64,000 nucleotides of DNA, from positions 1 through 64,000 of the forward strand of contig NZ_JAFMPR010000003.1 in assembly GCF_020667835.1 (NCBI RefSeq), given 5' to 3'. The stretch comes from Roseibaca sp. Y0-43. Lineage in GTDB: Bacteria > Pseudomonadota > Alphaproteobacteria > Rhodobacterales > Rhodobacteraceae. A program made the position numbers and the translations under genes. Under the pieces are notes generated by a model that was not told the DNA's origin, did no database searches, and worked only from the letters and a program-made list of their open reading frames with translations. Of this stretch, positions 35,208 to 50,949 are shown one piece after another. Each line of letters begins with the position of its first letter. Positions within the stretch are counted from its first letter, which is position 1.

Positions 35208-36023
35208 TTAGTCCCAGCCCATTTTAGCTAGATAGCCCTCGATCAGAGGGGTATCGGACGGGTTATTCAACTCCCAGAACACCGCGCCGGGGGCCGACAC
35301 CTCTACCACGCGCACCGGGTGGCCGTTTTCCAGAAAGCGCAACTGTTCCAGCCCTTCCAACGCTTCCAGCGGCCCCACGTCCCAGCCCATATAGGCATAG
35401 AGCGCGGCACGGCGGTAGGCATATAGGCCCACATGGTGAAACACCGGCACCACGCCATCGACCACGCCACGGCCATTGGTGAAGGGGATCACCTCTTTCG
35501 AGAAATACAGCGCATGGCCCAGCCGGTTCGCCACCACGGTGGTGGCCCCCACGCGCCCAGCCGCGCGGTCGGCGATGAAGTTCTGCACGGCGTCCGTGTC
35601 GCAGCGCAGGATGGGTGTGGCGATGCCGCAATCGGGATCATCGCGCATGGCTTGCACAAGGGCGGTCACGAAATGCGGCGGTGTCAGCGGTGCGTCGCCT
35701 TGCAGGTTGACGATGATCTCGGCATCCAGCCCCGCGTTCTGCACCGCTTCGGCCACGCGCTCGGTGCCATTGCGGCAGCTCTCAGAGGTCATGATGACCT
35801 CGGCCCCGATGCGCGCGGCCTCTGTCGCGATGCGGCTGTCATCGGTCGCCACATACAGCGCGGCCTGCACGCCCATATCGCGCACAGCAGCGCGGCCCGC
35901 TTCGACCGAGCGTTCCAGCAGCGTTTTCACCTGCCCGGAGGCACCGCGCAAGGGCGCCAGCGGCTTGGCCGGAAACCGGGTAGAGGCATAGCGCGCCGGG
36001 ATGATGATCGCGATCTTGCTCAT
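35208..36023 (-). CDS. kdsB: 3-deoxy-manno-octulosonate cytidylyltransferase
   Basis: The 271-residue protein matches Kds[21 protein letters not shown] at the start, [43 protein letters not shown], and the C-terminal [18 protein letters not shown]. It activates Kdo as CMP-Kdo for lipopolysaccharide core assembly in the cytoplasm. It starts inside the kdsA stop codon (ATGA, 36020-36023), making a kdsA-kdsB pair. Confidence 0.96.
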
Positions 36024-36856
36024 GCCGCCAGACCCTTGGCCAACGCATCGAAAGCGCGCAGTTGGGCGATCAGCCCTTCCATCTGGTCCACCGGGATCAT
36101 GTTCGGGCCGTCAGACGGCGCGGTGTCGGGAGCTTCGTGCGTTTCAATGAACAAGGCCGATACGCCCACAGCACAGGCCGCGCGCGCCAGAACCGGCGCG
36201 AATTCGCGTTGCCCGCCCGATGTGGTGCCCTGCCCGCCCGGTTGCTGCACCGAATGCGTGGCGTCGAACACCACCGGATAGCCGGTCTGCGCCATGATCG
36301 GCAGGCCGCGAAAATCGCTGACCAGCGTGTTGTAGCCAAAGGACGTGCCCCGGTCGCAGAGCATGATCCGATGGTTGCCGGTGGACGCGATTTTCTCGGC
36401 GACGTTGCCCATGTCCCATGGTGCCAGGAACTGGCCTTTCTTGACGTTGATCGCCGCGCCCGTTTCGCCTGCCGCCAGCAAAAGGTCGGTCTGGCGGCAT
36501 AGAAAGGCCGGAATCTGCAACACGTCGCAGGCTTCGGCCGCGGGTGCGCATTGGCGCGCATCATGCACGTCTGTCAGCACCGGGCAGCCGAATTCGTCGC
36601 GGATTTTCGAGAGGATCGACAGCCCCTCTTCCATCCCCAACCCGCGCTGGGTGGTGATGGACGAGCGGTTCGCCTTGTCGTAGCTGGCCTTGAAGATGAA
36701 GCGCGTGCCGGTGGGCGCACAGGCCGCCGCGATCCGGTCTGCCATCATTCGAGCGTGGTCCAGGCTTTCCAATTGGCATGGCCCGGTAATCAGGGCAAAA
36801 GGGTGTTTGGCCCCGATCTCAATATCGCCAACCGTGACAATCCGTGCAGTGCTCAT
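36020..36856 (-). CDS. kdsA: 3-deoxy-8-phosphooctulonate synthase (Kdo-8-P synthase)
   Basis: The 278-residue protein shows the KdsA signature ([95 protein letters not shown]). It condenses arabinose-5-phosphate with phosphoenolpyruvate, the first committed step of Kdo synthesis. ATG 36856 is the family start; the open frame further upstream adds unrelated sequence. KdsA and KdsB together make CMP-Kdo. Confidence 0.97.
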
Positions 36857-36930
36857 GGGTCTGGTCCTTTGTCGCTTGCCCCGTTGTGTGGCCCGCGACG
36901 GCGCTTGTCCAGCCCTGACAGCGCCGCGCC

Positions 36931-37527
36931 CTAATCGCGCAAGAAACCGCTTTCGAAATTCTGCCGTATGAAGTTGCGGAAACTGTCGAAATGGAACCAC
37001 GCCACATCGCGCACGGGTTTCACGATCTCGACCCCGAGCGCGCGGCCCTGCACATAGTGCTCTTCCGCGTCCAGCGCGGTGGCGGGGCGCAGCGCGCCGA
37101 AATGCTCTGGCATCGCGGCGACGAAACCGTCAATCGCGCGATCCTGTAGCCGAAGCGCATCCTCCACGACCTGCGCGGCGAAAGCGGTATCGACCACGCC
37201 CTCGCGGGTCCAGCGCAACAGCGTGCAGCTATAGGTCTTGCCGGGCACAGGCGCGGGGCCAGAACCTTCGGGGAAGAGCGATCCATTGGCGCAAAGCTGG
37301 CAGCGCGCGCAAATATCGACCGCTGGCGCGACACGCGCCGCCTGTTCCGGTGCCTCTGGCTGAGGGGCAGGGTCCGGCAGATCGGCGGTGAAATCCATCG
37401 CGTCGAAATGGGCGGCGAATTCGGAATTATACCATTCTGCCAGCGGGCGCCCTTCGACACCGCCATTATGGTAGGTGTCGGTCCAGGCAATGTTTGGCGC
37501 GGGGCGGGTCATCTGCAAACTGGTCAT
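36931..37527 (-). CDS. uncharacterised protein with CxxCxxC motif
   Basis: I do not recognise this 198-residue protein. It is predicted soluble. Residues 1-50 are rich in aromatic and acidic residues ([20 protein letters not shown]). A proline/alanine linker precedes a cysteine block at 73, 76, 79 and 101 ([12 protein letters not shown]...TYSCTL), the spacing CxxCxxC-x21-C seen in some Fe-S or zinc sites. The C-terminal half is helical with several Trp/Phe residues ([19 protein letters not shown]). It lies between the kinase-like gene and kdsA, all on the minus strand, only 21 bases below the kinase-like gene. The start ATG 37527 has AAGAG upstream. Confidence 0.6.
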
Positions 37528-37548
37528 GGGGCACTCTTTTCGGTCAGG

Positions 37549-38595
37549 TCAGGCGGCATCGGCCACAGAGGCAAGCTCGCGCGCCACTTCGTCGAACATG
37601 GGCACAAGCGGCGCGGTCAGGCGGCTGCGATCGGCAAAGAACATGGCCACGTTGCACAATTGCAGCGCGAAATCGGGATGCAGGCCCACATCGTCACGCG
37701 CCACGACCTTGCGCTTAGACTTCCACCCCCGCCGGGCCACTTCGGATTGCATGAGCTGCAAGCGCTGCAAGGCATGGAACACGGTGTAAAGCGACAGGTA
37801 GTCCAGCCACGCGTCGCGCGTGCCGGGGGTGTCGGGGTCATAAGCGTCGCGCACCATGTCGAACATGGTCTGCGCATCCAAGGGCCAGCTTTCATCGGCG
37901 ATCAGCCAGGCGAAATCTTCTGCCCCATGCCGCAACCCGCAATATTCGAAATCGAACCAGCGCAGTTTGCCCGAATCATCCAGCGCGGCATTGCCCGACC
38001 GGCAATCCCATTTCACGAATTGGCGCGGGGCAACGCTCAACGCCTCGAACACGGCGAATCGGTTGAAGCCTTTGCCAATCTTCGCGCCTTGCTTTTCCAG
38101 CTTGCGCACCGCGTTCACCACCCGCGTGACCCACGCCTTGGTGGACCCGAGCGGCGGCATGTATTTGTGCATCTCTTCCGCGCGGGCGGCACGGTGAATG
38201 GAAAACAAAGCCTCGACCGATTTCGCGGCGATCTGTTGGCGGGCGGCGTCGCCCTCTTCGAACATCGCGACATTCAGGCGGCGCTGGCCCGCGTCGCTTT
38301 GGAACAGCACATCGTCGGTCAGGCCCAGACAGCGCGGCATCGCATCGCACACAGCCCCCAGCTTGCGCAGGGCAAAGGCTTCGACGCGGGTGCGGCGGAA
38401 ATTGTCGCGGCAGGATGCAATGGCAGTCACGTCGCCCAGATGCACGCGGTAACTGGCGCGGTAGCTGCCGCCGGGGGTGCTGATACGGGTCAGCCGGTCG
38501 CCGAACAGGGTTTGCGCAGCGGCATGGACACGGCGAAAGCGATCCGCGTCCTCCTTGTCCATGTCCATCTCGGCAATGGTCGCTTCAATATCCAT
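37549..38595 (-). CDS. aminoglycoside/choline-kinase-fold phosphotransferase
   Basis: The 348-residue protein has an APH-type kinase fold. The catalytic loop reads FVKWDCRSGNAALDDSG (the usual HxDxxxxN is here KWDCRSGN) and the metal-binding segment is WFDFEYCGLRHGAEDFAWL. The first His of the loop is replaced by Lys, as in some atypical members. A glycine-rich nucleotide region is weak (TPGGSYRASYRVHLGD). The substrate is unknown. It is upstream of, and likely co-transcribed with, the Cys-motif gene. GAGG precedes ATG 38595. An alternative start at MDMDKED would remove ten residues. Confidence 0.75.
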   Translation of the reverse strand: MDIEATIAEMDMDKEDADRFRRVHAAAQTLFGDRLTRISTPGGSYRASYRVHLGDVTAIASCRDNFRRTRVEAFALRKLGAVCDAMPRCLGLTDDVLFQSDAGQRRLNVAMFEEGDAARQQIAAKSVEALFSIHRAARAEEMHKYMPPLGSTKAWVTRVVNAVRKLEKQGAKIGKGFNRFAVFEALSVAPRQFVKWDCRSGNAALDDSGKLRWFDFEYCGLRHGAEDFAWLIADESWPLDAQTMFDMVRDAYDPDTPGTRDAWLDYLSLYTVFHALQRLQLMQSEVARRGWKSKRKVVARDDVGLHPDFALQLCNVAMFFADRSRLTAPLVPMFDEVARELASVADAA

Positions 38596-38673
38596 AATGC
38601 ACCTCTATTGCGCCTATCGGGTCAACAAACCACGCAAAAATGGCAGAATTCGGTCGGGCGCGTGGCGCATGGA

Positions 38674-38706
38674 AAAACCGCCCGATGCAGGGCACCGGGC
38701 GGTTTT
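38674..38706. terminator. bidirectional intrinsic terminator
   Basis: Perfect 11-bp arms AAAACCGCCCG (38674-38684) and CGGGCGGTTTT (38696-38706) are flanked by an A run on the left and T run on the right. On the minus strand it lies 18 bases past the stop of the (R/K)GS-repeat gene and before the kinase-like gene, so it isolates the repeat gene as its own transcription unit. Confidence 0.9.
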
Positions 38707-38723
38707 CAGTCAGCTCAAGGCGA

Positions 38724-39566
38724 TCAGCACCAGTTATGGCTGTCGTCTTCTTCCTCTTCATAGTCGTCGTCGCAATCGGCCTCATCCGCGTTGCCGGTGC
38801 TGAACTGCGCAAGGATGTCGTCATCTTCGCTCATCGGCTCCAACGAGAGGTTGCCGTCCTCGTCTTCGACCAGGGTGTAGTCGTAATAGGCCTCGTTGCC
38901 ATCGGCATCGGTGCCCACCAGCGTGACCTGATAGATTTCGCCGACTTCGACACCTTTTTCTTCCAGATCGGCCAAGACCTGCTCTTCGGCCTCTTCCAGC
39001 GGCAGCTCCGCGAAAGTGGTGCCTTCGGGCAGTTCGACCTCGACCACCTGCGCCCAGCCTTCGGGCGACAATTCGCTGGTCGAGCCGTCGTCATTGACGG
39101 TGCTGTAGAAGAATTTCATCTTGGCAACGTCGCTGGCATTCTCGTTCGGGCCTTTGCCCGTGCCACCCGACCCGCAGCTACCGCGCGAACCGCGACCATG
39201 CGACCCACGGCTGCCACGACTACCGCGCGAGCCTTTTCTTCCACGCGAACCGCGCGACCCACGGCTACCACGTGACCCCTTGCTGCCACGCGACCCGCGC
39301 GAGCCACGGCTACCGCGCGATCCCTTGCTCCCCCGCGATCCCTTGCTGCCTTTCGAGCCACGGCTGCCACGCGACCCGGAACCCTTGTGGCCCCAAGACC
39401 CGCGACCACCCCGAGAACCCTTGCTGCCGCAGGAACCGGACCCTTTGCTGCCACGCGACCCGCGCGAACCAGACCCTTTGGAACCTTTGGACCCGCGAGA
39501 CCCGCGACCGCCGTCATCGTGCTTGTTCTTGGCCCAAGAGGCCCATCCGCCAAAAAATCTTGCCAT
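38724..39566 (-). CDS. (R/K)GS tripeptide-repeat protein with acidic C-terminus, unknown function
   Basis: The 280-residue protein has three parts. Residues 1-20 are an aromatic lead ([20 protein letters not shown]). Residues 21-133 are almost entirely tripeptides RGS or KGS (about 35, with a few CGS, WGH and HGR units and two-residue slips GS-GS), giving a strongly basic stretch. Residues 150-280 look folded ([20 protein letters not shown]..., [20 protein letters not shown]) and end in an acidic tail ([16 protein letters not shown]). Four cysteines sit at 46, 131, 265 and 280. Codons in the repeat vary (AGC/TCG, CGT/CGC, GGT/GGC/GGG), so the protein pattern is kept while the DNA drifts. GGAGAG precedes ATG 39566; no signal peptide is obvious. 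Confidence 0.75.
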
Positions 39567-39881
39567 GTTATCTCTCCAAATTCCTATGGATGCCGAGTTC
39601 TGCGCGGCATTAAGAAATCCTTAAGAGCAAAATGTGGCGATCCCGGCCGTCGCGCGGCTATCGCGGCCATGTTTTTGACAATTTTTCAAAGCGTTATCGC
39701 CGTCAGCGAAACAGTTTTCCAGTCTTTGCCCAGTCTTTGAGGCAATTTGGAAACAACCGAACGGTGCAGTTCGGCACCTGGAAACCCGCCGACCCCGATA
39801 CCGAATCGATTTCGCTAAGGTAACAACAACAGACCCGACACCGATTCGGGCCACGGAGCATGTTCAGCGGGCGTGCCGGTG
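39567..39881. promoter_or_regulatory. intergenic region upstream of the repeat-protein gene
   Basis: These 315 bases, less GC-rich than their surroundings, separate dnaE from the divergently read... more exactly, both genes are on the minus strand, and this spacer is downstream of dnaE and upstream of the repeat gene. It holds TTGA-N7-TCAA (near 39675), two CAGTCTTTG copies (39719-39739), a CCGAAC/GTTCGG stem near 39755-39775, and CCGAATCG/CGATTCGG arms around 39812 and 39843. No ORF of merit and no strong terminator for dnaE. It probably carries the promoter of the repeat gene, but I cannot fix its position. Confidence 0.35.
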
Positions 39882-42800
39882 CTATAGTTCTTCCACCAGC
39901 ACCACGCCATCGAGCGATTTGACCGCGCCCTTCACTTGCGGGGTGATGGCGTATAGCTGGCCGGTGTCGATGTCATATTCCTGCCCGCGCTCGGGATCGG
40001 TCACGCAAAACCACAAAGGCCCGCGCGCCTGCCCCTTGCCGTAGCGGTCCAGCAGGCTCGCCACCGCAGAGATGGCGGACGGGTCGGCCACATGCACCCG
40101 CAAGCCCGCCGCGCCCGCATCCGCCACCACCGCATCAATCGGCTGAATGGCGCGCGCGAGCAATTTCAGCGTGTCGGCTTCCATCGTGGCCTCTGCGGTG
40201 ATGACCACGTTCATGCCCGGTTCCAGATATTGGCGGCCTGCTTCCAGCGCCTCGGAAAACACAGTCACTTCATAGAGGCCCGTCGAATCGGACAATTGCA
40301 CGAACGCAAAACGATTGCCCTTCGCCGATTTGCGTTCTTGCCGCGCAGACACCGCGCCCGCGATCTTGGCCATGAAGGGGCCGGATGCGGCTTTCTTCTC
40401 GATCTCTGCCAGTGTCATGACCTGCTTGCGCTTCAACGCGCCCGCGTAATCATCCAGCGGGTGGCCCGACAGGTAAAAGCCGATGGCCTGATGTTCCGCG
40501 GCCAGCCGTTCGGTCGGCAACCAGTCGTCCACCTTCGCCATGCGGGGTTCGGGAATGTCGCTGCCCGCCTCGCCAAAGAGCGACACCTGGTTGGACGCGC
40601 GCGCCTCAAACACGGCGGCCGAATAGGTAACAAGCGCATCGAGGCTTTCGAACACGCGGCGGCGATTGCGGTCCAACTGGTCGAACGCGCCCGCCCGCGC
40701 CAGCATTTCCAGCGCGCGCTTGCTCACGCGCTTCAGATCCACACGGCGGGCCATGTCGAAAAGCGTGGCAAAGGGTTTGTCGCCGCGCCCATCGACCAGC
40801 AGCCGCATCGCATCGACGCCCACGTTCTTCAACGCGCCCAGCGCATAGACGAGCGCGCCATCGGCCACGTCGAACCGCGCGCGCGAGCGGTTCACGCAGG
40901 GCGGGATCACGGCAATGTTCAGCCGGTCCACCTCGCGCTTATAGACCGCCAATTTCTCGGTCAGGTGAATATCGCAGTTCATCACGCCGGCCATGAATTC
41001 GACCGGGTAATTCGCCTTCAGATAGGCGGTCTGGTAGCTAACCACGGCATAGGCGGCGGCGTGGGATTTGTTGAAACCGTAATTGGCGAATTTCTCCAGC
41101 AGGTCGAACACCTCGCCCGCTTTCTTCTCATCCACGCCGTTTTCAATCGCACCCTTCACGAATTTGGGGCGCTCTTTCGCCATCTCCTCAGCGATCTTTT
41201 TGCCCATCGCGCGGCGCAGCAGGTCCGCCCCGCCGAGCGAATAGCCCGCCATGACCTGCGCGATCTGCATCACCTGTTCCTGGTAAACGATGATGCCTTG
41301 GGTTTCTTCCAAGATATGGTCGATCGAGGGGTGAATGGATTCGAGCGCCTTTTGGCCGTTCTTCACCTCGCAATAGGTCGGGATATTCTCCATCGGGCCG
41401 GGACGATAGAGCGCGACCAGCGCCACGATATCTTCGATGCAGGTGGGTTTCATGCGCCGCAGCGCATCCATCATGCCGGAACTTTCCACCTGGAACACGG
41501 CCACGGTGCGGGCGCTGGCGTATAGGTCGTAGGTTTTCTTGTCATCCAGCGGGATGGCAGAGATGTCTATGTCCACGCCTCGCCGTTTCAGCAACTCGAC
41601 CGCGTTCTGGATAACCGTCAGCGTCTTCAGGCCCAGAAAGTCGAACTTCACCAGCCCGGCCTGTTCGACCCATTTCATGTTGAACTGCGTTGCGGGCATG
41701 TCCGACCGCGGGTCGCGATACAGCGGCACCAACTGGTCCAGCGGGCGATCCCCGATCACGACCCCTGCCGCGTGGGTGGACGCATTGCGCAACAACCCTT
41801 CGACTTTTTGCGCATGGGTCAGCAGGCGGTCGACCACCTCTTCCGACTTCGCCATCTCGCGCAGGCGCGGCTCGTCGGCCAGCGCCTTTTCAATGCTGAC
41901 GGGTTTGACCCCTTCGACCGGGATCATTTTGGACAGTTTGTCGACCTGCCCGAACGGCAGTTGCAACACACGCCCCACATCGCGCACGGCGGCCTTGGAC
42001 AACAAGGCGCCGAAAGTGATTATCTGGCCGACCTTGTCATGGCCGTATTTTTCCTGCGTGTAGCGGATCACCTCTTCGCGGCGGTCCATGCAGAAGTCGA
42101 TGTCGAAATCCGGCATCGACACACGTTCGGGGTTCAGGAACCGCTCGAACAACAGCGCATAGCGCAGCGGGTCAAGGTCGGTGATCGTCAGCGCATAGGC
42201 CACAAGGCTGCCCGCGCCCGACCCCCGGCCCGGCCCTACCGGAATATCCTGTTCCTTCGCCCATTTGATGAAATCGGCCACGATCAGGAAATAGCCGGGA
42301 AAGCCCATGCCCTCGATGATGCCCAGCTCGAATTCCAGCCGTTTTTCATACTCCTCGACCGGGGCGGCATGGGGGATGACGGCCAGACGCGCTTTCAGCC
42401 CCTCGCGGGCCTGACGGCGCAGTTCCTCGACCTCGTCCTCGGCGAAGCGGGGCAGGATGGGCGCGCGTTTTTCGGCCTTGTAGGCGCAGCGGCGCGCAAT
42501 CTCGACCGTGTTCTCGATCGCTTCGGGCAGGTCGGCGAACAGCGCCGCCATCTCCTCTGGCGACTTCAGGTAATGTTGCGGCGTCAGGCGGCGGCGTGGC
42601 GCGGATTGGTCCACATAGGCACCCTCCTTGATGCACAAAAGCGCATCATGGGCCTCATACATGTCGGCCTTGGGGAAATAGACGTCATTGGTGGCAACCA
42701 GCGGCAGACCCAGCGCATAGGCCATCTCGACGAAGGGGCGCTCTGTTATGCGCTCTGCCTCCATCATCTGGCCGTCATCGCCGGGGTGGCGCTGCAATTC

Positions 42801-43319
42801 GACATACAGGCGGTCCGGGAACGCGCGCGCCAGCCGTTCCAGCAGCGCGCGGGCTTTGGGCATCTGGTTCGTCTGGATCAGCTTGCCCACCGCGCCTTCA
42901 GCCCCGCCGGTCAGGCAAATTACACCGTCCGAATGCGCCTCCAGCTCTTCCAGCGTGACCTGCGGAACGGGGCGATCCTTGGGCAGATACAGGCACGAAT
43001 TCAGCGCCATCAGGTTCATATAGCCCGCTTCCGACTGCGCCAGAAGCACCACGGGCGCAGGCATCCGCAGCTTTTCGCCGGGCGCGGGCGGGTCATAGGC
43101 CAGCGACACCTGACAGCCCAGAATCGGCTGCACCCCAAGCCCCGACGCCAGAACCGAGAATTCCAGCGCCGCGAACATGTTGTCGGTATCTGTGACAGCA
43201 ATCGCCGGATAGCCCTTTTCGGCGCAGGTTTTCACCAGCTTCTTCAGGGGCACCGCCCCTTCCAGAAGTGAATATTCGGTATGGGTGCGCAGATGGATGA
43301 AACGGGGGGCGTTGGTCAT
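39882..43319 (-). CDS. dnaE: DNA polymerase III alpha subunit (DnaE)
   Basis: The 1145-residue protein is a full-length replicative DnaE. The N-terminal PHP domain (FIHLRTHTEYSLLEGAVPLK) leads to the polymerase core with the catalytic aspartates in MPDFDIDFCMDRREEVI and the conserved GPGRGSGAGSLVAY and YNFGFNKSHAAAYA-like GFNKSHAAAYAVVSYQTAYLK. The C-terminus has an HhH, an OB domain (AKIAGAVSARQERKSAKGN) and a short tail (ITPQVKGAVKSLDG). It makes chromosomal DNA in the Pol III holoenzyme. ATG 43319 is the family start; the open frame upstream is spurious. It is transcribed alone. Confidence 0.97.
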   Translation of the reverse strand: MTNAPRFIHLRTHTEYSLLEGAVPLKKLVKTCAEKGYPAIAVTDTDNMFAALEFSVLASGLGVQPILGCQVSLAYDPPAPGEKLRMPAPVVLLAQSEAGYMNLMALNSCLYLPKDRPVPQVTLEELEAHSDGVICLTGGAEGAVGKLIQTNQMPKARALLERLARAFPDRLYVELQRHPGDDGQMMEAERITERPFVEMAYALGLPLVATNDVYFPKADMYEAHDALLCIKEGAYVDQSAPRRRLTPQHYLKSPEEMAALFADLPEAIENTVEIARRCAYKAEKRAPILPRFAEDEVEELRRQAREGLKARLAVIPHAAPVEEYEKRLEFELGIIEGMGFPGYFLIVADFIKWAKEQDIPVGPGRGSGAGSLVAYALTITDLDPLRYALLFERFLNPERVSMPDFDIDFCMDRREEVIRYTQEKYGHDKVGQIITFGALLSKAAVRDVGRVLQLPFGQVDKLSKMIPVEGVKPVSIEKALADEPRLREMAKSEEVVDRLLTHAQKVEGLLRNASTHAAGVVIGDRPLDQLVPLYRDPRSDMPATQFNMKWVEQAGLVKFDFLGLKTLTVIQNAVELLKRRGVDIDISAIPLDDKKTYDLYASARTVAVFQVESSGMMDALRRMKPTCIEDIVALVALYRPGPMENIPTYCEVKNGQKALESIHPSIDHILEETQGIIVYQEQVMQIAQVMAGYSLGGADLLRRAMGKKIAEEMAKERPKFVKGAIENGVDEKKAGEVFDLLEKFANYGFNKSHAAAYAVVSYQTAYLKANYPVEFMAGVMNCDIHLTEKLAVYKREVDRLNIAVIPPCVNRSRARFDVADGALVYALGALKNVGVDAMRLLVDGRGDKPFATLFDMARRVDLKRVSKRALEMLARAGAFDQLDRNRRRVFESLDALVTYSAAVFEARASNQVSLFGEAGSDIPEPRMAKVDDWLPTERLAAEHQAIGFYLSGHPLDDYAGALKRKQVMTLAEIEKKAASGPFMAKIAGAVSARQERKSAKGNRFAFVQLSDSTGLYEVTVFSEALEAGRQYLEPGMNVVITAEATMEADTLKLLARAIQPIDAVVADAGAAGLRVHVADPSAISAVASLLDRYGKGQARGPLWFCVTDPERGQEYDIDTGQLYAITPQVKGAVKSLDGVVLVEEL

Positions 43320-43474
43320 GGCCCGAGTGTAGTGCAGCCGATTCCGGCGGGAAAGATGGAATGGCCATCGCGCAGGCAGTTTTCCGGCGCAGCGCAGTTC
43401 CGTGCAGCTTTCGCTTGCCTCTGCCGCCATGTCACGGTTTCTTGTGGGGCGGTTCGAACAGACAGGCCCATCCC

Positions 43475-49801: not shown

Positions 49802-50949
49802 CCCTTCATCCCGTCCCAGAACCCTTTGACCTTGTCAAAGAAACTGTTGGTTTCGGGATTGTTCTCGGCGCTTAGCTTCTCGAACTCTTCCAGAAGCTCT
49901 TTCTGGCGTGCGGTCAGGTTGACCGGGGTTTCCACCGCCAGCTCTATCAGCATGTCGCCATGGCCCGCGCCGCGCAGCGCGGGCATCCCCTTGCCACGCA
50001 AGCGCATTTGCTTGCCCGACTGGCTACCCGCCGGCACTTTCACGCGCGAGCGCCCGCCGTCTATGGTGGGCACCTCGACCTCTCCGCCCAAAGCGGCGCG
50101 GGTCACGCTGACGGGCACCCGGCAATAGAGGTTCATGCCATCACGCTTGAACAGCGTGTGCTCGGCCACGTTCACGAAGATATACAGATCGCCCGCCGGA
50201 CCGCCGCGCAGACCTGCTTCCCCCTCGCCCGACAGGCGAATGCGGGTGCCGGTTTCCACGCCCGCCGGAATGTTGACCGACAGGTTCGCTTCCTTTTCCT
50301 TACGCCCAGCGCCACCGCAGGATTTGCACGGGTTCTTCACGATCTGACCCGCGCCGCCACAGGTGGGGCAGGTGCGTTCCACGGTGAAGAAACCCTGCTG
50401 CGCGCGCACCTTGCCCATGCCCGAACAGGTGGGGCAGGTCACGGGTTCCGCGCCGCCCTCTGCGCCGCTGCCATTACAGGCGTCGCATTCCGACAGGCGC
50501 GGCACGCGGATGGTCTTGCGGGTGCCGGAATACGCCTCTTCCAGCGTGACGCGCAGGTTGTAACGCAGGTCCGACCCACGGCTGGCGCGCGAGCGGCCAC
50601 CGCCACCGCGCCCACCGACGAAATCGCCGAACAGGTCTTCGAACACGTCCGAGAAGGCGCTGGCGAAATCGCCGCCGCCGCCGAAGCCTTGCGGCCCCCC
50701 GCGCGGCCCGCCCCCCATGCCACCATCGAATGCGGCATGACCGAAGCGGTCATAGGCGGCCTTGCGCTCGGGGTCTTTCAGAACGTCATAGGCTTCGTTT
50801 ACTTCCTTGAACTGCGCCTCTGCATCGGGGTTGTCCGAATTGCGGTCGGGGTGCAGTTCCTTGGCCTTCTTGCGATAGGCCTTCTTGATCTCGTCGGCCG
50901 ATGCGGACCGGCTGACGCCCAGCAGATCGTAGAAATCGGGTTTGGCCAT
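49798..50949 (-). CDS. dnaJ: chaperone protein DnaJ
   Basis: The 383-residue protein is a type I DnaJ. The J domain has [20 protein letters not shown] and [19 protein letters not shown] with HPD. Next is a Gly/Phe-rich region, then four CxxCxGxG zinc-finger repeats ([41 protein letters not shown]), and a C-terminal substrate-binding part. It is the co-chaperone that loads clients on DnaK. It follows dnaK on the minus strand after 72 bases that contain a strong hairpin, with the start ATG 50949. Confidence 0.97.

Follow-up and report, generated by a model that had tools for sequence, protein, structure and literature searches.

A proline-free Gly-Ser-Arg/Lys repeat protein with a conserved C-terminal domain of no known family in Roseibaca

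A gene on the minus strand of Roseibaca sp. Y0-43 encodes a protein with a long stretch of Arg-Gly-Ser and Lys-Gly-Ser units, followed by a folded-looking part and an acidic tail. Is this a real protein or an accident of a DNA repeat, and if it is real, where does it belong and what could its basic arm do? No such protein came up in the open-access literature among the matches listed, as judged by titles and the first lines of abstracts. We examined the surrounding stretch of 64,000 nucleotides (hereafter the window) and 37 genomes of the genus, a set that includes the window's own and in which many are incomplete. Judged from its sequence, the gene is real and selected, and encodes a protein that as a whole falls into no known family.

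The gene, its repeat and its neighbours

The features of the locus are the following:
38724..39566, minus strand: coding sequence of the RGS/KGS protein (280 aa, ATG start, stop included), from the ORF list and orthologues
39507..39566, minus strand: aromatic start, residues 1-20, from the translation; without a signal-peptide-like hydrophobic stretch
39168..39506, minus strand: (R/K)GS repeat, residues 21-133, 27 GS[RK] units with two-residue slips; Pfam Collagen on residues 79-134
38802..39131, minus strand: conserved domain, residues 146-255, predicted b-b-a-b-b-b (AlphaFold2 pLDDT 83.6, pTM 0.75)
38727..38801, minus strand: Asp/Glu-rich tail, residues 256-280, with a Trp-Cys end, from the translation
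39610..39624, minus strand: CtrA-type box TTAAGGATTTCTTAA, 44-58 bp upstream of the start codon, from a pattern scan of the 64-kb window
39708..39713, minus strand: TGTTTC element at -147, from upstream comparison and control regions
39750..39755, minus strand: TGTTTC element at -189, from upstream comparison and control regions
39572..39577, minus strand: GGAGAG, likely ribosome-binding site, read from the upstream sequence
38674..38706, no strand assigned: terminator-like inverted repeat that ends in an A run on one side and a T run on the other; a second listing gives a shorter stem there

Over its 113 residues, Gly, Ser, Arg and Lys make up 95.6% of the repeat, in which 27 GS[RK] and 30 [RK]GS triplets can be counted; Pro, Thr, Asp and Glu are absent from the translation. 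The glycine rhythm is shifted here and there by two-residue slips, e.g. KGSGSRG. This is the stretch, the rhythm and the lack of proline that a preliminary description had reported, along with a mixed use of serine codons; both TCN and AGY are indeed present (TCG 14, AGC 10, TCC 5, TCT 4, TCA 1 and AGT 1 in residues 20-134). Its further claim, that selection acts on the amino acid pattern and not just on a DNA repeat, is supported by the synonymous spread: the 27 GS[RK] units of the window are spelled by 19 DNA variants, but the spread is smaller in two orthologues (13 variants for 36 units and 14 for 42), whose repeat expansion looks more recent by this measure. The remaining orthologue has 5 variants for 7 units. 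Codon-position differences within units are partly circular as evidence, since the units were chosen by their amino acids.

The RGS gene is flanked by dnaE (39882-43430, minus strand, named by eye) and by an APH-like gene (37549-38595, minus strand; Pfam APH E 0.00098, under the cut-off). Its start codon lies 315 bp from the dnaE stop, and the inverted repeat at 38674-38706 is found beyond its end, in agreement with the large upstream region and the gene's own terminator noted earlier. A further terminator-like site is located between dnaE and the RGS gene (39852-39832, minus strand); no sigma-70-like promoter was found upstream of the gene on its strand.

Four of the 37 genomes carry the RGS gene: the window's own (G000), Roseibaca ekhonensis CECT 7235 (G025) and two metagenome bins (G015 and G034). 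As far as the contigs allow a view, its location is conserved: it is preceded directly by dnaE in G000, G025 and G034, and in G015 dnaE is on a separate contig. The APH-like gene follows it in G000, G015 and G025; the short G034 contig, at whose end the RGS gene sits, gave no APH-like match. In G019, a close relative without the RGS gene, a kdsA-like frame comes directly after dnaE, so the segment from the RGS gene to kdsA may reflect an insertion or a loss. Between the RGS gene and kdsA (36931-38595), the window contains a 198-aa ORF besides the APH-like gene. By eye, we recognised neither phage genes nor radical SAM genes among the ORFs of 36000-42500.

A conserved domain and its N-terminal partners

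In all four orthologues the repeat frame is open, with 27, 36, 42 and 7 GS[RK] units in G000, G015, G025 and G034, respectively. The repeat number, whose variation the preliminary description asked about, ranges from 7 to 42 units, and the frame, a break of which in close relatives would have spoken against that description, is intact in the three other orthologues: repeat number drifts, frame and composition are kept. For the domain, all six pairs of orthologues give a dN/dS of 0.055-0.152 at dS values of 0.76-1.19 (Nei-Gojobori, own script, 110 domain codons). Values so far below 1 point to strong purifying selection on the domain.

The cysteines are less constant. Those of the window protein stand at 46, 131, 265 and 280, and its acidic tail ends in SHNWC, as first stated. 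The layout of two cysteines each in the basic and the acidic part does not extend to the relatives: only the terminal one is common to all four orthologues (ends NWC, DWC, WWC and DWC), a Cys near the repeat end is present in three, and Cys46 and Cys265, found in the window protein only, show that the positions are not fixed.

A first structure model of the domain, from 6 sequences, was poor (pLDDT 65.5); with 11 sequences in AlphaFold2 the confidence given in the feature list was reached, consistent with the folded-looking domain suspected after the repeat. The predicted elements are strands 2-12 and 29-33, a helix at 45-58 and strands 63-74, 80-89 and 95-99; the helix at the end is of low confidence. 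Neither model found a match in the PDB with Foldseek at E <= 0.001 (best E 0.13, with the better model). A sequence search of solved structures gave a best E of 0.16, a second one nothing at E <= 1. Pfam and NCBIfam hold no family for the domain (bPH_6 at E 0.045-0.15 is below cut-off), and PHROG gave no match to the domain alone; the concern that it might turn out to be a well-known family was not borne out by any of the Pfam, NCBIfam, PDB-sequence and Foldseek searches.

Several other origins were considered and set aside. Seven viral-contig stretches fit a pattern of the domain and none was confirmed as a relative; the domain has no PHROG match either. In 72,556 plasmid records there was one poor match (E 0.5), which covered 60% of the query at 33.8% identity. 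No PADLOC model matched, which gives no ground for a defence role. As for an RNA gene, only sX6 was found, and its 18 bits fall short of the cut-off of 40.

Searching with the domain of the window protein retrieved 1 of 385 genomes in a class sample, its own alone; its profile matched in 3 of 394 genomes of a family sample, one discarded as chance; and a pattern scan of a wider genome collection returned three loci, all of this genus. Within the genus it is present in 5 of 37 genomes at six places, namely in the four RGS proteins and in two proteins of G034 and G060 where KADAIRD-like repeats and an Asp run take the place of RGS. This helical module occurs in 12 of the 37 genomes. Of the eight helical loci that we read, four are near an rpoD-like gene (G034, G060, G021 and G018) and four near an mfd-like gene (G022, G020, G033 and G011), all named by eye. 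Compared with the window domain, the C-terminal parts reach 93.5% in hhalign for G021/G012/G018 and 65.9% for G020/G022; they appear to be related to it, with falling certainty.

Like the RGS protein, the helical relatives combine a related C-terminal domain with an acidic tail and are encoded by stand-alone genes; unlike it, they have a charged-helix middle of KADxxRD repeats. Such stand-alone genes of the genus (L073:7208-8083, L078:7208-8059, L074:8953-9840, L077:1733-2560 and others) encode a short start, KADxxRD repeats and an Asp run, with a small domain at the C-terminus. Four were scanned, and no Pfam model was above its cut-off.

A profile built from eight helical proteins matched in 1 of 289 genomes of a class sample, the window's own alone, and in 9 of 394 genomes of the family. 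Two of the nine are the window's own genome and G025; the other matches are five proteins that carry a beta-type N-module, a Gly-His protein of G593 and one chance match. The beta-type module carries the motif KIFTYxxDGLSYTV, its strand nature being guessed from sequence. At L081-L085 and L103, this N-module (KIFTYxxDGLSYTV...GSIKxVSGD) is joined through an acidic linker to a C-domain that is related, with no Pfam match in the two proteins scanned. The G593 protein (L088:7239-8300) is rich in Gly and His, contains Asp runs and ends in Cys: a possible metal binder, and possibly a distant relative of the window domain. Its link to the family is weak, with an HMM E of 3.8e-4 over a stretch that includes the Asp runs and hhalign values of 6.6% against the window's group and 37.7% against a helical subgroup. 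In a protein of G460, the beta-type N-module is fused to a domain resembling the one in G593 (E 4.8e-6, 27% identity).

Some candidates were discarded by eye as chance matches: a 1029-aa Ig-like protein of G494, a dehydratase-like frame of G578, and repeat-only matches in G049, G031 and G005, the last being a proline-rich collagen-like sequence.

We regard it as a serious possibility, if not quite a probable one, that these genes form a modular family of Rhodobacteraceae not described before, with a constant small domain of new fold as the docking platform for swapped polymer-like arms, the RGS form being under CtrA, a regulator of cell differentiation. The arms would be cationic GSR/GSK repeats, apolipoprotein-like helices, perhaps Gly-His repeats, or the beta-type module.

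The CtrA-type box and other upstream elements

TTAA-N7-TTAA, the binding pattern of CtrA, occurs once in the 64-kb window, where 0.01 is expected, and that copy is the box at 39610-39624. All four RGS genes have the same element 44-60 bp ahead of the start codon, within their best conserved upstream block. When all 14 RGS and helical upstream regions are shuffled, 0.08 is obtained in place of these four, though the four come from related genomes and are not independent. Upstream of the ten helical genes it is absent (0/10), a point in which they are unlike the RGS genes. Nor is the box enriched genome-wide: 9 perfect sites in 3.03 Mb compare with 12 for the reversed pattern, so the number of sites alone proves nothing.

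The genes behind five of the eight other perfect sites were scanned. They encode one EAL and one PAS protein, a PAS-HisKA kinase and two glycosyltransferases, one of these a MshEN-glycosyltransferase, and lie 37 to ~210 bp from their boxes with gene starts set by a mechanical rule. At L091:1552-2980, an EAL gene and then a universal-stress gene follow a TTAA-N7-TTAA box. A CtrA is encoded in this genome; its DNA-binding part shares 89% identity with what we take to be the Caulobacter stretch. According to PMC9430884, osp of Rhodobacter sphaeroides has a CtrA-like TAA-N7-TTAA site 54 bp upstream of its start codon, a distance about equal to that in the RGS genes. For Dinoroseobacter shibae, PMC7232146 gives the fuller CtrA motif as TTAAC-N5-GTTAAC and places c-di-GMP genes of Rhodobacteraceae under CtrA control. 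The window box, TTAAG-N5-CTTAA, differs from this motif in the inner C and G. Taken as signs of CtrA regulon membership, then, the shorter form is found in all four RGS genes and the fuller D. shibae form does not fit the window box.

A second element is shared with the helical genes. On the coding strand, TGTTTC is present in 10 of 14 upstream regions (three of four RGS, seven of ten helical), with 14 copies against a mean of 1.8 and at most 7 in 300 dinucleotide-shuffle sets; the 14 regions are not independent, and that of G015 is only 125 bp long. Among other genes of the same loci, it is present in 24 of 157 regions of equal length, or 7 of 77 when counting non-coding gaps only, in control regions not matched for base composition. 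Two copies stand at near-equal places, -189 to -192 and -143 to -149, in G000, in G025 and before the helical gene of G034. These counts hint that RGS and helical genes may share a regulator.

A GAAAC-N5-GTTTC palindrome is located ~70-100 bp before the helical starts of G021, G018, G020 and G033 and is a possible regulator site; these are the 4 upstreams of 14 that have it, all helical (shuffle mean 0.02). As an element of the RGS gene we rejected it: the one perfect copy in the window, at 49840, is far from the gene, and the count with one mismatch is at chance level (2 vs 1.39).

Possible roles of the repeat arm

We propose, as the best of several readings of these sequences but still a rather doubtful one, that the RGS protein is a CtrA-controlled polycationic tether for acidic polymers. 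It would be made while the CckA-ChpT-CtrA system is active. The constant domain may be its docking or multimerising part, and the Arg/Lys arm would bind a polyanion with no need for an exact sequence; arm length would set reach and avidity, and copy number could then drift as long as frame and composition are kept. Because several of the genes behind the same box are of c-di-GMP and glycosyltransferase type, the partner would most likely be a surface polymer such as an acidic exopolysaccharide; a nucleic acid is less likely. Two chains may be linked through the terminal Cys. Polyanion binding or self-association, as first proposed, thus stays a fair guess.

For such a tether we count the low dN/dS of the domain, the repeat kept in frame in all four, the box before all four genes at an osp-like distance, the CtrA of the same genome, the five of eight box-mates and the charge before the domain (+33 in G000, +39 in G015, +46 in G025, +7 in G034). 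Against it we count the unenriched box, its departure from the fuller motif and its absence before the ten helical relatives, the lack of a sigma-70-like promoter, the kinship of the upstream regions and the G034 arm of only +7. Hydropathy also counts against it: in the scan, nothing resembling a signal peptide or a membrane segment emerged for any of the four RGS proteins (in the window protein the 12-residue Kyte-Doolittle mean peaks at 0.42 near the N-terminus; across the four the highest 15-residue mean is 0.69-0.80), so a surface location is unsupported.

Could the arm instead be a proline-free bacterial collagen, with three Gly-Ser-Arg/Lys chains in a triple helix, the C-terminal domain as register and the GS slips as interruptions? 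Glycine does occupy every third place in long runs, and Pfam Collagen (PF01391) scores 38.7 bits against a cut-off of 27.2 (E 8.3e-10, residues 79-134). This named resemblance qualifies the earlier statement that no family has such a layout, which stands for the protein as a whole. Profile matches to SclA, SclB and Lcl, far below cut-off, point the same way, as do nine of the 17 PHROG matches of the whole protein, which are tail proteins, one of them named collagen-like; low-complexity Gly-X-Y repeats, however, score with any such profile. PMC8968730 describes triple helices of the low-proline Scl2.28, rich in both Lys and Asp, whereas residues 21-133 contain neither Pro nor an acidic residue. 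Neither richness in Pro, Hyp or Thr nor opposite charges could stabilise a triple helix there, and like charges on three chains should repel. We judge a collagen unlikely.

Bacterial collagen-like proteins (PF01391; Scl1/Scl2, Lcl) share glycine at every third place, a variable repeat number and an adjoining non-collagen domain, but the RGS repeat is without Pro, Thr and acidic residues, its neighbouring domain is of no known family, and neither a signal peptide, by hydropathy scan of the four orthologues, nor an LPXTG-like end, as expected of a secreted adhesin of the Scl/Lcl type, was seen. Phage collagen-like tail proteins (PHROGs 5073, 6320, 1806) match through their Gly-X-Y profiles, but the gene sits between dnaE and the APH-like gene, and no viral relative of the domain was found. 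HxsA4 (NF038313) has a three-residue Ser repeat in common with the RGS protein, which at 44.9 bits remains under the cut-off of 55, shows no His rhythm and has no radical SAM gene nearby, as judged by eye.

Alternatively, the proteins might act in stress protection of the LEA/hydrophilin type, as hydrophilic, mostly unstructured shields, LEA-like in the helical relatives and glycine-rich in the RGS form. Hydrophilins are defined by more than 6% Gly and high hydrophilicity; the four RGS proteins have 16.8-22.4% Gly and a GRAVY of -1.06 to -1.38, a measure other than the original hydrophilicity index. Three of the four helical proteins scanned match Pfam Apolipoprotein weakly (E 7.9e-5 to 0.004, far under the cut-off of 90 bits), a profile that LEA repeats also touch. 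Reports on the genus, among the matches listed, place it in haloalkaline waters and in others that are salty or alkaline. On the other side, the EcfG-type stress promoter GGAA[CT]-N15-19-GTT is absent from all 11 upstream regions searched, one of them only 125 bp long, and a shield would not need a conserved folded domain under strong selection. A protective role of this kind seems improbable to us.

Basic and acidic blocks in one chain without a signal peptide would also suit an intracellular block polyampholyte, in which attraction between repeat and tail, of the same chain or of different ones, would form condensates or organise RNA or DNA. From the domain on, the net charge is -39 in G000, -37 in G015, -38 in G025 and -41 in G034: the acidic side is steady and the basic side ranges from +7 to +46, so the blocks do not co-vary, and a fixed balance of charge is not supported. 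High salt would, in addition, weaken the block contacts, and we hold this explanation to be quite unlikely. Finally, the variable repeat number and the low-complexity frames open on both strands could fit an ORF that is decaying or arose by chance over a DNA repeat, a reading that the dN/dS of the domain and the frame kept in all four genomes make scarcely credible.

We now return to the constant domain with exchangeable arms and to the CtrA-controlled tether. If they are true, the RGS protein would be a Gly-X-Y polymer from nature that lacks proline, is all-cationic and comes with a companion domain not described before, and would make a case for asking whether such a chain forms a triple helix, e.g. 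at high salt. It would also be a candidate structural, rather than signalling, protein in the CtrA programme of the genus. If arms are indeed swapped on one domain, this domain may offer a platform for fusions.
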